64,000 nucleotides of DNA from NCBI RefSeq assembly GCF_031180965.1, contig NZ_JAPSLH010000004.1, positions 1 through 64,000 of the forward strand, read 5' to 3'. Origin of the DNA: Chelativorans sp. (GTDB lineage: Bacteria; Pseudomonadota; Alphaproteobacteria; Rhizobiales; Rhizobiaceae). The notes beneath the pieces were generated by a model. The model did not search any database. It was not told the DNA's origin and saw nothing but the letters and a program-made list of their open reading frames with translations. Below, piece after piece: positions 58,147 to 61,395 of this stretch. Position numbers and translations under genes: made by a program. The first letter of the stretch is position 1; the number at the start of each line of letters is the position of its first letter.

Positions 58147-58207
58147 GCCTTCCCTTTCCGTTTCGAGCCGGTCTATAGTCGGCCAATACAGCAAATTCTG
58201 GTGATTG

Positions 58208-59635
58208 ATGTTGGAGAATAGGAAGGCGGGCCGAGCCGGCAGAGGCGGCGCCCGTACGCCTGCGTTTCTTAAAAACCTGCGCGGCGTAAAGGACTGGAAG
58301 GAAGCCACCTCCTGGCTCGAATGGCGGGGCATCGAGGATATAGAGTGCATTGCGCCGGACCAAGCCGGCGTCGCGCGGGGCAAGATGATGCCCTCGAAGA
58401 AATTCACCTCCAACACCTCGCTTGCCCTGCCCTCCGCCGTCTTCATGGCGACGATCTCCGGAGAATACCCGGAGAACGGGAATGGCTTCACCTATCCGGA
58501 GGATGACGGCGACCTGAAGCTTGTGCCTGATCTGTCAACGCTCTCCGCAGTACCCTGGGAGTCGGACCCCACCGCTCAGGTCATCTGCGATCTCGTGCAT
58601 CAGGACGGCCGCGACGTGGAGTTCAGTCCGCGCGCCGTCCTGAAACGGGTCGTGGCGAAATATGCCGAGCAGGGCCTGAAGCCCATCGTGGCGCCGGAAA
58701 TCGAGTTCTATCTGGTGCACAAGAACCCCGATCCGGACTACCCCCTGACGCCGCCCGTCGGCCGCTCGGGCAGGCCGATCGGCGGCGGCCAGGGCTATTC
58801 CATCGCCGGCGTCAACGAGTTCGACGAGCTCATCGACGACATCTACCATTTCTCAGAGTCACAGGGCTTGGAGATCGACACGCTGATCCACGAGGAGGGC
58901 GCGGGACAGCTCGAGATCAATCTGCGCCACGGCGATCCGGTGGAGCTGGCCGACCAGGTCTTTCTCTTCAAGCGCACCATCCGCGAGGCGGCGCTGAAGC
59001 ATGATATGTATGCCACCTTCATGTCCAAGCCCATCCAGGGGCAGCCGGGCTCGGCCATGCATATCCATCAGTCTCTGGTCTCGGCCCGCACTGGGCGCAA
59101 CGTCTTCTCCGACGCAAAGGGGGATGAGACGGAGATCTTCCAACATTTCGTGGGCGGGCTGCAGCGGCACATCCCGAATGCGCTCATCATGCTCGCGCCC
59201 TATGTTAATTCCTATCGCCGCCTGGTGCAGGGCGGCTCGGCCCCGGTCAACACTCGCTGGGGCTACGATAACCGCACGACCGCATTCCGCGTGCCGCGCT
59301 CCGATCCTGCCTCCCGACGGGTCGAGAACCGCATCCCCTCCTCCGATGCCAACCCGTATCTTTCGCTCGCTGCCTCGCTCGCCTGCGGCCTGATAGGCAT
59401 CCTCGAAAAGATCAAGCCGGACGCGCCGGCGGTGACCGCGGTCAACACCAACCTCATCGAGCTGCCGCGGGGGCTCCTGGAAGCCGTCGCCCTTTTCGAA
59501 GCCGACACCACGCTGCGCGAGATCTTGGGCGAGAGCTTCGCCAGCACCTACGCCGCCATCAAGCGGGCCGAGTTCGAGACCTTCATGAAGGTCATCAGCC
59601 CCTGGGAGCGGGAGTATTTGCTGCTCAATGTGTGA
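58208..59635 (+). CDS. puuA: Glutamine synthetase family; gamma-glutamylputrescine synthetase-like
   Basis: The 475-residue protein starts MLENRKAGRAGRGGARTPAF and carries the glutamine-synthetase catalytic segments: metal-binding PEIEFYLV, HEEGAGQLEINL, the ATP-binding MHIHQSL region and the SDANPYLSLAASLACGL motif. PuuA-like members ligate glutamate to putrescine, the first step of the gamma-glutamylated putrescine pathway. Context supports this: potFGHI import genes lie on one side and a PuuB-like oxidase follows. A four-helix-bundle cassette now separates puuA from puuB. A relaxed specificity for other amines cannot be excluded. Confidence 0.82.
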   Translation: MLENRKAGRAGRGGARTPAFLKNLRGVKDWKEATSWLEWRGIEDIECIAPDQAGVARGKMMPSKKFTSNTSLALPSAVFMATISGEYPENGNGFTYPEDDGDLKLVPDLSTLSAVPWESDPTAQVICDLVHQDGRDVEFSPRAVLKRVVAKYAEQGLKPIVAPEIEFYLVHKNPDPDYPLTPPVGRSGRPIGGGQGYSIAGVNEFDELIDDIYHFSESQGLEIDTLIHEEGAGQLEINLRHGDPVELADQVFLFKRTIREAALKHDMYATFMSKPIQGQPGSAMHIHQSLVSARTGRNVFSDAKGDETEIFQHFVGGLQRHIPNALIMLAPYVNSYRRLVQGGSAPVNTRWGYDNRTTAFRVPRSDPASRRVENRIPSSDANPYLSLAASLACGLIGILEKIKPDAPAVTAVNTNLIELPRGLLEAVALFEADTTLREILGESFASTYAAIKRAEFETFMKVISPWEREYLLLNV

Positions 59636-59640
59636 GATAA

Positions 59641-59667
59641 GGGCAGTAGGGCAGTAGGGCAGTAGGG
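59641..59667. repeat. Left tandem octamer array (GGGCAGTA)3
   Basis: Three perfect copies of GGGCAGTA (59641-59648, 59649-59656, 59657-59664) plus GGG follow the puuA stop by 5 bases. The next bases (AAAGA, then ATG at 59673) make the final GGG part of the ribosome site of the four-helix gene. The unit is the reverse complement of the array on the other side of that gene. Confidence 0.9.
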
Positions 59668-59672
59668 AAAGA

Positions 59673-60041
59673 ATGCCGATGCCGATCGATTCGTACAAGG
59701 ACCTGGTCGTCTGGCAGCAGGCAATGGATTTGGCTGTCGCAGCCTATGGCCTGACACGAAATTGGCCAAAAGACGAATTGTACGGCCTGACGGCCCAAGT
59801 GCGTAGGGCTGCAAGTTCAGTGCCGGCAAATATTGCGGAAGGCTACGGGCGCGAGAACCGCGGCTCGTACCAGCAGTTCCTTAGAATTGCGCAAGGGTCA
59901 CTAAAGGAGCTGGAGACGCATCTCCTGATTGCGCAACGCGTCGGGATCGTTCCAACCGAAGCCACTGCAGAGCTGATGGCTGATAGCGAGAGCGTCGGAA
60001 AGCTCTTGCGCCTTCTGATCCGCAAACTCGCTGATGAGTAG
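59673..60041 (+). CDS. Four-helix-bundle (IVP/S23 family) protein in an octamer-flanked cassette
   Basis: This 122-residue protein belongs to the four-helix-bundle family first known from intervening sequences in 23S rRNA genes. It has the typical SYKDLVVWQQAMDLA, then the conserved QVRRAASSVPANIAEGYGRE and the FLRIAQGSLKELETHLLIA helix. It is a free-standing gene here, not inside an rRNA gene. Base composition is less GC-rich than its neighbours. It interrupts the puuA-puuB pair and is flanked by GGGCAGTA x3 and the inverted TACTGCCC x6, so the block 59641-60103 looks like a mobile cassette. Function is unknown; nucleic-acid or protein binding is suggested for relatives. Confidence 0.88.
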   Translation: MPMPIDSYKDLVVWQQAMDLAVAAYGLTRNWPKDELYGLTAQVRRAASSVPANIAEGYGRENRGSYQQFLRIAQGSLKELETHLLIAQRVGIVPTEATAELMADSESVGKLLRLLIRKLADE

Positions 60042-60047
60042 CACTCC

Positions 60048-60103
60048 TACTGCCCTACTGCCCTACTGCCCTACTGCCCTACTGCCCTACTGCCCCACTC
60101 CCC
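60048..60103. repeat. Right tandem octamer array (TACTGCCC)6, inverted to the left array
   Basis: Six perfect copies of TACTGCCC (60048-60095) follow the four-helix gene by 6 bases and are trailed by a degenerate copy (CACTCCCC, 60096-60103). A partial unit (CACTCC) precedes them. The unit is the exact reverse complement of GGGCAGTA, so the gene lies inside inverted arrays of unequal length (3 and 6). Confidence 0.95.
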
Positions 60104-60123: not shown

Positions 60124-61395
60124 ATGATCTCCCCCGGCTACTCCTGGTATGAGGCGACGGTCGGCGAGCGGCCGGAATACCCGCCGCTCGAGGGCGACAT
60201 CAGGGCCGACGTGGCAATCGTAGGTGGCGGGTTCACCGGCCTGTCGGCGGCGGCGCACCTCGCAAAGGCGGGCGTCGACGTCGTGCTTGTCGAGGCCAAT
60301 CGAGTGGGCGACGGCGCCTCGGGCCGCAATGGCGGCCAGCTCGGAACCGGTCAAAGGGACTGGCCGGAGGAGCTCGAAACCGAGCTCGGCTTCGCCCGCT
60401 CGAAGGCGCTGTTCGACCTAGCGGAGGAGGCGAAAGCGCATCTCCTCGAATTCGCGCAGGCAAACGGCATCGAGATCGACTATGTGGCCGGCCACCTCTC
60501 GGTGGCGCATAAGCGGCGCTATGTGGATGCGTATCGGGCGCATGCGGACATCATGCGCGAGCGCTATTCCTACCCGCATATCAAGTTCATGGATGCGAAG
60601 GAGACCGCCGAGCGCCTGGGCTCGACCCGCTATTTCGGCGGCGTCCGCGACACCGGAACGGGCCATATCCATCCGCTGAAACTGGTGGTCGGCACGGCAA
60701 GAGTAGCCGCCGCGGCCGGCGCTCGGCTCTTCGAGCATACGAAGGCGACGGGGCTTTCTTCAGCGGGCGGAAAAGTGCAGGTCGCCACGTCCCGCGGGAT
60801 CGTGACGGCGGACAAGTGCCTCGTGGCCACCGACGCCTATGATGCCGATCTGGAGCCGACCACCGCCGCCCACCTCTTGCCGATCGGCTCATTCATCGGC
60901 GCCACGGTGCCGCTCGGCGATGACAGCCGGGTGCTGCCCGGCGGCGAAAGCGTGGACGATTCCCGCTTCGTCGTCCGCTATTTCCGCAGGTCCACGGATG
61001 GGCGGCTGCTTTTCGGCGGACGCGAGGTCTATTCACGGGCAAGCCCGAGGGAGATCAGGGCGCAGATCGGGCGCCAGATCGCCGACGTATATCCCTTTCT
61101 CAGGAATGTGGAGATCACCCATGCCTGGGGCGGCTTCGTGGGCATCACCATGCCGCGCCGGCTCTTCGTGCGCGAGGTGATGCCCAATGTGATCGCCGCC
61201 GGCGGCTATTCCGGCCATGGCGTGATGCTCGCCAATTTCATGGGCCGGCTCTATGCCGAGGCGGTCGCCGGCAATCGCGACCGGCTGAAGCTCTTGGAAG
61301 ATTTGAGGATCCCGCCCTTTCCCGGGGGGCCGCGCCTCCGCCACGCGCTGCTCTTCCTGGCTCTCAACTGGTACGCGCTGCGCGACCGAATCTAG
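60124..61395 (+). CDS. puuB: FAD-dependent oxidase; gamma-glutamylputrescine oxidase-like
   Basis: This 423-residue DAO-family flavoprotein starts MISPGYSWYEATVGERPEYPPL, with the Rossmann motif VAIVGGGFTGLSAAAHLA at residues about 30-48 and the characteristic GASGRNGGQLGTGQ. C-terminal VEITHAWGGFVGITMPRRL and YSGHGVMLANFMG match PuuB/OrdL-type oxidases. It would oxidise gamma-glutamylputrescine to the aldehyde. The next enzyme, an aldehyde dehydrogenase, is encoded 0.8 kb away on the opposite strand. An in-frame ATG at 60034 would add an octapeptide repeat translated from the octamer array and is judged spurious. Confidence 0.85.
   Translation: MISPGYSWYEATVGERPEYPPLEGDIRADVAIVGGGFTGLSAAAHLAKAGVDVVLVEANRVGDGASGRNGGQLGTGQRDWPEELETELGFARSKALFDLAEEAKAHLLEFAQANGIEIDYVAGHLSVAHKRRYVDAYRAHADIMRERYSYPHIKFMDAKETAERLGSTRYFGGVRDTGTGHIHPLKLVVGTARVAAAAGARLFEHTKATGLSSAGGKVQVATSRGIVTADKCLVATDAYDADLEPTTAAHLLPIGSFIGATVPLGDDSRVLPGGESVDDSRFVVRYFRRSTDGRLLFGGREVYSRASPREIRAQIGRQIADVYPFLRNVEITHAWGGFVGITMPRRLFVREVMPNVIAAGGYSGHGVMLANFMGRLYAEAVAGNRDRLKLLEDLRIPPFPGGPRLRHALLFLALNWYALRDRI

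Follow-up and report, generated by a model that had tools for sequence, protein, structure and literature searches.

The stretch of DNA analysed here (the window, 64,000 nucleotides of contig NZ_JAPSLH010000004.1 of Chelativorans sp.) contains a four-helix-bundle gene of the PF05635 family that is enclosed by inverted tandem arrays of one octamer. This element lies between two protein genes and not inside a 23S rRNA gene. Inverted arrays form a class that is found beside PF05635 genes in other genomes as well, about which there is hardly any doubt, and members of this class that lack the gene disperse within genomes, which is only slightly less certain; movement is seen for the gene-less satellite and not for the window gene. 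These properties are probably those of a two-part system resembling the REPIN-RAYT systems, in which a mostly sessile, trans-acting gene is combined with mobile satellites that end in arrays.

The window element and its class

The window element is made up of the following features, given together with the host gene on each side. Genomes, contigs and loci carry handles (G, C and L numbers) where they have to be told apart, and papers are cited by PMC number from parts of their text.

58205..59635, + strand: glutamine-synthetase-family host gene (puuA-like), upstream of the element
59641..59667, + strand: left array, three copies of GGGCAGTA and a fourth GGG tract, G-rich on the gene strand
59673..60041, + strand: four-helix-bundle gene, 122 amino acids, PF05635 (23S rRNA intervening-sequence protein family), candidate helper for gene-less elements
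60046..60103, + strand: right array, six copies of TACTGCCC and a degenerate seventh, inverted with respect to the left array
60124..61395 (from 60034 if read through the array), + strand: flavin adenine dinucleotide (FAD)-dependent oxidoreductase host gene (puuB-like), downstream of the element

The left array is composed of (GGGCAGTA)3 at 59641-59664 and a fourth GGG tract at 59665-59667, four GGG tracts being the number that is tied to G-quadruplexes (PMC4692102). The right array is composed of (TACTGCCC)6 at 60048-60095, and its degenerate seventh unit reaches 60103. When a two-unit array pattern is searched for with at most two mismatches, eight matches are found in the window, all of them at this locus, and none in 100 shuffles. 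The bracketing of the gene by inverted octamer arrays and the absence of a transposase had been read from the letters alone in a first-pass annotation, and both are confirmed: PF05635 is the sole Pfam match of the element, with no match to a transposase or a reverse transcriptase. The last left repeat continues into AGGGAAAGAATG, which makes it a plausible source of the ribosome site of the gene. No Rfam match reaches its gathering score among the eight sources searched.

The window protein scores 124.4 bits against PF05635 in the profile search (cut-off 33.8) and 115.9 against TIGR02436/NF008911 (cut-off 24). Its solved relatives in the PDB are XCC0516 (2gsc) and 2rld, with five chains each, and the Xanthomonas structure is described as a homopentamer (PMC4990558). 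Among 55 proteins of less than 75% identity, four residues of the window protein, Q42, R45, S49 and E56, do not vary at all, and E79 hardly does.

The class to which this element belongs is seen when PF05635 loci are collected from 101 relatives (25 with a match), from genome contigs (the best 80 of 555 loci, in which close Hyphomicrobiales are over-represented), from the genus of G031 (13 of 35 genomes) and from nine further genomes (eight of the nine; 41 matches, 30 with a locus, 29 used). Removal of 15 duplicates from the 147 gene loci read leaves 132, of which nine lack full flanks, leaving 123. With periods of 6-9 allowed in the detection, arrays are found on the left at 93 and on the right at 85 of these 123 loci, on either side at 103 and on both sides at 75, compared with 3 of 269 control windows. 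The arrays of 72 of the 75 two-sided loci are inverted and those of one are direct, and in 43 of the 75 the consensus unit of the left array agrees exactly with that of the right, as compared with a mean of 9.7 (maximum 19) in shuffles and 29.8 (maximum 38) in within-site shuffles. Almost all left arrays are G-rich (94 of 98) and almost all right arrays are C-rich (85 of 91; counted before the last nine duplicates were removed). The suspected class of elements with inverted tandem-array ends exists, and arrays are present beside most of the homologues collected, contrary to the absence of arrays that the first-pass annotation had named as part of its refutation. The units vary with lineage (GGGCAGTA, GGGGAGTA, GGGAGTAA, GGCAGTA, GGCAGTC, GCGAATA, GGTGAAT, GGGATTC, GGGGTGTA and others), and the arrays occur beside PF05635 genes of Pseudomonadota, of Cyanobacteria and of one Latescibacterota record (L109).

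In six cyanobacterial, Chloroflexi and Latescibacterota genomes, the PF05635 copy number is 2-13 per genome. G524 has six matches (its loci include L100, L287, L295, L302 and L306), several of them with visibly different flanking units, and G528 and G529 have 13 and nine matches, respectively, each including one below the cut-off. In L289 (G526), the four-helix gene is bracketed by a 26-base non-tandem inverted repeat, perhaps another type of end. PF05635 has no match in 50,697 phage records; it is carried by 29 plasmid records, nearly all cyanobacterial by record name, and the two cyanobacterial plasmid records that were inspected by eye both have inverted arrays.

Gene-less elements and their dispersal

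The genome of the window contains three further exact GGGCAGTA arrays, each of which is the end of an element with a core of about 110-180 base pairs (bp) in which no gene is seen. The core motif TTGTCTAGACAATTCGACAA has 13 matches (at most three mismatches) at 11 places in this genome, and at eight of these 11 places the TTGTCTAGACAA-type core motif lies between inverted octamer arrays, as judged by eye, several of them being degenerate on at least one side; the other three places (C43, C51 and C53) are not between inverted arrays. At L209 (C43:87591), a TTGTCTAGACAA-type motif is in apparent coding sequence without arrays and may have another role, for example as a regulator site. A further element of this genome, L203, is located between genes read by eye as rpsM and rpsK.

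Dispersal is most directly seen in G031, where seven copies of a 61-bp hairpin-containing core, 96.7-100% identical, are present in seven unrelated gaps, each between (AAGGGAGT)n on the left (about 6-12 units) and (TATTCCCC)n on the right (about 4-11 units). Two of the seven sites have counterparts with diverged cores in sister species (L249 and L251 compared with L215; L255 compared with L243), and at old sites the copies are therefore alike within a genome and different between genomes. Array slippage is likely, because the copy number varies between near-identical elements. This is in agreement with slippage as one of the two explanations given in the first-pass annotation for the unequal array lengths in the window.

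A gap between convergent genes was compared by eye at 20 loci, of which 13 are filled, one holds a remnant (L229), five are empty (L238-L242) and one has another repeat (L237). The filled copies are broadly of two core kinds and two left-unit kinds. In the empty loci, an intrinsic terminator hairpin is present between the convergent genes, and this terminator is missing in the filled copies. The upstream stop codon is a TAG provided by the element end in L223, L225 and L226 (three of the 13 filled loci), and elsewhere a TGA or TAA precedes the element. In L237 (G108), an unrelated repeat, roughly 150 bp long, interrupts the terminator.

The G-rich outer ends of the elements are often found next to stop codons. 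In 42 of 65 cases, compared with 150 of 1300 control positions, such an end is at -60 to +12 bp from the place where an open frame of 120 codons or more finishes on the same strand; this set consists largely of gene-less elements and includes some gene-bearing loci. In nine of 13 units, every frame of the G-rich strand is interrupted by a stop, and the C-rich strand is free of stops in all 13; the right-array unit of the window is likewise stop-free in all three frames. With the nine units, translation that enters the element halts at once from either side, while the exit is open, and insertion into an operon may thus be tolerable.

Residence of the gene, array abundance and competing explanations

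The gene itself behaves differently from its satellites. Four gaps hold 98 of the 132 loci: puuA|puuB (50, a count inflated by over-represented close relatives), nuoC|nuoD (25), acyl-CoA dehydrogenase|mmsB (19) and ATP-grasp|alpha-E (4), the genes of the last three gaps being named by eye from translations. A matched neighbour is found at 96 of 106 loci, and the gene is co-oriented with it in 95; the exception, L078, matches a distant puuB on the opposite strand, near a contig end. The protein tree clusters by site, with 12 changes compared with 71.9 when shuffled (for a short protein, with many weak forks). The puuA|puuB loci fall mostly in one clade, and site moves are few: L070 and L077 belong to the puuAB clade at other sites, and the ATP-grasp|alpha-E loci are found among the nuoC|nuoD rows. 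The gene is mostly sessile, given these few moves and the concentration of the loci in four gaps.

The flanking genes of the window had been named puuA and puuB. Neither protein reaches the cut-off of any of the specific NCBIfam models listed, and they are therefore named puuA-like and puuB-like here; the puuA-like stop codon ends 5 bp ahead of the left array. A recent insertion of the window gene between them is rejected: residence in the puuA|puuB gap is old and mostly vertically inherited, as this gap accounts for 50 of the 132 loci, mostly in one clade. The same gap was compared by eye in 16 genomes of the genus of the window. The gene with octamers is present in G000 and G002, a decayed gene in G008 and array scraps in G015; gene-less inverted arrays are of the GTGAATG type in G004, G005 and G011 and of the GCGAATA type in G009 and G012; and G001, G003, G006, G007, G010, G013 and G014 are without an array. 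No target-site duplication is found, nor a clean pair of filled and empty sites that would mark a single event.

Array period and gene lineage are related. The period is 8 in all 47 puuA|puuB loci with a detected left array, and 7 in all loci of acyl-CoA dehydrogenase|mmsB (19/19), nuoC|nuoD (10/10) and ATP-grasp|alpha-E (4/4). L070 and L077, with puuAB-clade proteins at other sites, retain period 8, such that the array period tracks the gene lineage more than the site. In addition, 14 gene-bearing relatives have at least eight hits and carry their genes at one kind of site; octamers are the commoner arrays in all three puuA|puuB genomes among them and in one of the 11 others (p 0.011). This one exception, G022, carries a decayed puuA|puuB gene (L136), and G047 combines the two kinds of gene with the two kinds of array.

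Array abundance also follows the presence of the gene. In the genus of G031, octamer hits number 61-145 in each of the 13 gene-bearing genomes and 0-25 in 21 of the 22 gene-less ones, with 100 hits in the remaining one, G128 (Fisher p 9e-9); reversed-pattern controls give 0-5 per genome. In a tree of one flanking region (22 of the 35 genomes, many weak forks), the gene-less G102 (0 hits; 85% complete) and G119 (2 hits) are inside a gene-bearing clade, and the gene-less G134 (17 hits) is beside another. Among the 101 relatives, at least four hits to one of two patterns are found in 17 of 25 genomes with the gene and in 11 of 76 without it (p 1e-6), the two patterns having been picked after the units were seen and leaving other units uncovered. 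Movement in trans, as suggested in the first-pass annotation, is the best reading of these data: elements that share this kind of ends but lack the gene disperse, and they track the gene.

In the mechanism proposed here, the window locus would be that part of a two-part repeat system which carries the gene. Its ends are tandem repeats of a single unit, 7 or 8 bases long, in inverted orientation, and the strand that runs into the element is usually the G-rich one. The four-helix protein, pentameric in 2gsc, may recognise its cognate array as DNA or as a folded hairpin and may help host enzymes of replication or repair to copy DNA enclosed by arrays into gaps that follow stop codons. The nearly sessile gene would be transcribed by the host operon, and slippage would afterwards alter the copy number of the arrays. 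The role of the protein as a trans-acting helper is judged probable from the sequence comparisons; confidence in any particular copying chemistry is low.

Several observations weigh against this proposal. The most conserved residues of the 55 proteins form no recognisable catalytic motif. At 20 of the 123 loci, no above-threshold array is found on either side (eight of these are at nuoC|nuoD), with weaker arrays still present at some below-threshold loci, for example L032 and L102, and in Herpetosiphon (G528) only one of six copies inspected has an above-threshold array (L279). G128 has its 100 array hits and no PF05635 match; since one of its contigs (C55) starts at an array-bearing site, it is possible that the gene has been lost or that it was dropped from the assembly. 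Four other genomes without a PF05635 match are array-rich (G001, G007, G023 and G094, with 30-88 heptamer hits), and three more have 22-39 hits over both patterns (G009, G045 and G048); conversely, eight gene-bearing relatives have fewer than four hits, the two patterns missing their units. The gene-array association is partly confounded by relatedness: forks in the flanking-region tree are weak, and G102, one of the gene-less genomes that matter most there, is 85% complete. Across the seven G031 copies no constant target-site duplication is seen by eye, the ends being blurred by array slippage, and the gap compared at 20 loci looks like terminator replacement and not like simple insertion, as its filled copies have no terminator.

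Some of these points would be expected if the gene-less elements were non-autonomous elements of an ordinary kind, mobilised by host recombination or an unrelated transposase, the four-helix gene being a passenger with the same ends and the same favoured hosts. The array-rich genomes without a PF05635 match (G128, G001, G007, G023, G094, G045 and G048) agree with this explanation, as do the hairpin cores of the elements, hairpins being what IS200-like transposases recognise. It is nevertheless unlikely, though the strongest of the alternatives, when compared with the association of arrays with the gene within one genus (13 of 13 genomes compared with 1 of 22), with the array period that follows the protein lineage and with the four of 13 gene-bearing, array-rich genomes without an RVT_1 match, for which a reverse transcriptase is unneeded.

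It is also conceivable, with still lower probability, that the system acts at the RNA level, with the arrays forming a hairpin in the operon mRNA that is cut by RNase III or serves as a 3' end or terminator, the four-helix protein binding RNA and the arrays being kept for regulation, with mobility incidental. In the predicted RNA fold of the window element, the gene is enclosed by a stem roughly 28 bp long (z -6.0 compared with shuffles), and the fold of the gene-less L215 has a z of -4.8; an intrinsic terminator is replaced by elements at one site, and the Coxiella 23S rRNA intervening sequence is cleaved by RNase III (PMC4990558). However, elements are present inside operons, such as between rpsM and rpsK (named by eye), where termination should be harmful, sister species lack elements at the same gaps, and near-identical copies across unrelated gaps show dispersal. 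The remaining view, that the arrays are mere slippage-prone tandem repeats that arose separately at the ends of genes, without forming an element or being connected with the four-helix gene, is rejected as very improbable: the copy number does vary freely, and heptamers have been proposed to be slippage-prone (PMC4692102), but slippage is unable to account for left and right units that are reverse complements in 72 of 75 loci or for near-identical cores between arrays at unrelated sites.

Relation to known repeats and elements

REPINs are paired inverted repeats in intergenic space. By analogy, the trans-acting helper system proposed here has its nearest known counterpart, in way of working, in REPIN-RAYT, which likewise combines a sessile gene with many dispersed gene-less repeats, RAYTs being apparently unable to mobilise themselves and present as single copies (PMC3116915). 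The proteins differ (IS200-like in REPIN-RAYT and PF05635 four-helix here), and so do the repeats (single palindromes compared with tandem arrays of 7-8-mers). Between the window arrays only the PF05635 gene and no IS200-like (Y1) gene is found, Y1 genes elsewhere in the genome not having been searched for.

In the Coxiella 23S rRNA intervening sequence, a protein of the PF05635 family (S23, or intervening-sequence protein) is also encoded within inverted terminal repeats, and two to three tandem GACAGAT heptamers, variable between strains, precede the S23 gene (PMC4990558). The window system differs in its location in an operon gap, in the tandem arrays that form its inverted ends and in the presence of gene-less satellites. 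The Avd protein of diversity-generating retroelements has a related four-helix fold and a nucleic-acid partner (PMC10053308); the window element is without the reverse transcriptase, template and variable repeat of such a retroelement. RVT_1 matches are present in nine of the 13 gene-bearing and in 10 of the 22 gene-less genomes of the genus of G031, and a reverse-transcriptase partner of this kind is rejected as not needed, since four of the 13 gene-bearing genomes have none. Terminal inverted repeats (72 of the 75 two-sided loci) are shared with insertion sequences and miniature inverted-repeat transposable elements, whereas the gene-bearing window element, unlike an insertion sequence, has no recognisable transposase. 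The short tandem arrays beside cyanobacterial PF05635 genes may be related to the cyanobacterial heptamer arrays named short tandemly repeated repetitive (STRR) sequences.

At the level of the unit, the window octamer GGGCAGTA is the Brucella HOOF-print unit AGGGCAGT (PMC7589603) rotated by one base. HOOF-prints are octamer typing loci whose copy number is hypervariable at eight loci, and in the portions of text consulted they are presented as typing markers only, with no mention of an element, an inverted partner or a protein (PMC7589603, PMC1183211). The GGGAATC / GGGGA(C/T)T heptamer arrays of Xanthomonas and Nostoc are, like the window arrays, G-rich, near stop codons and in inverted pairs (70 and 75 pairs in two Xanthomonas genomes); they prefer gene ends, are conserved in site and variable in length, and are generally described there without mobile-element association or function (PMC4692102). 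The terms 'four helix', '23S' and 'S23' are absent from the text of that paper. GGGAATC arrays are present in three of 398 Pseudomonadota genomes, two of them with a PF05635 match and G252 without, and both PF05635 genes sit between accB and accC, as read by eye. The link between this unit and PF05635 is weak, because L285 has a left array only and L286 has no array above threshold. In G412, the GGGRATC pattern is strongly biased to one strand, with 204 reverse and 5 forward hits, of which the first listed are one long array.

Beyond the heptamers of PMC4990558, no literature joining PF05635, S23 or four-helix genes to tandem arrays is found in a search that covered mostly open-licence full texts and that subscription papers and preprints could escape. 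The parts of the system are known; as far as the literature was searched, their combination is new.

A wider reading is that these elements constitute a new transposase-less class of mobile DNA, in which the arrays would be both ends and address, and in which a pentameric four-helix protein would read its own unit and drive copying behind stop codons. Intervening sequences, HOOF-prints, the Xanthomonas and Nostoc heptamers and possibly the cyanobacterial STRR sequences would then be members or relics, each protein lineage having its own unit code. This reading is tentative and somewhat less likely to be right than wrong, its probability being lowered by the weak GGGAATC link and the few Herpetosiphon arrays.

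Short tandem arrays in bacterial gene gaps, so far treated as typing markers or as G-quadruplex repeats without an origin, would by this proposal have a single, testable origin. If the proposal is true, it would give an origin to the Brucella HOOF-print octamers and perhaps to other orphan repeats, and it would describe mobile DNA with tandem-array ends whose helper is not a recognisable nuclease. It also offers a function for PF05635, a family with a solved fold and no assigned role, and the putative recognition code becomes directly testable through the agreement of array period with protein lineage.
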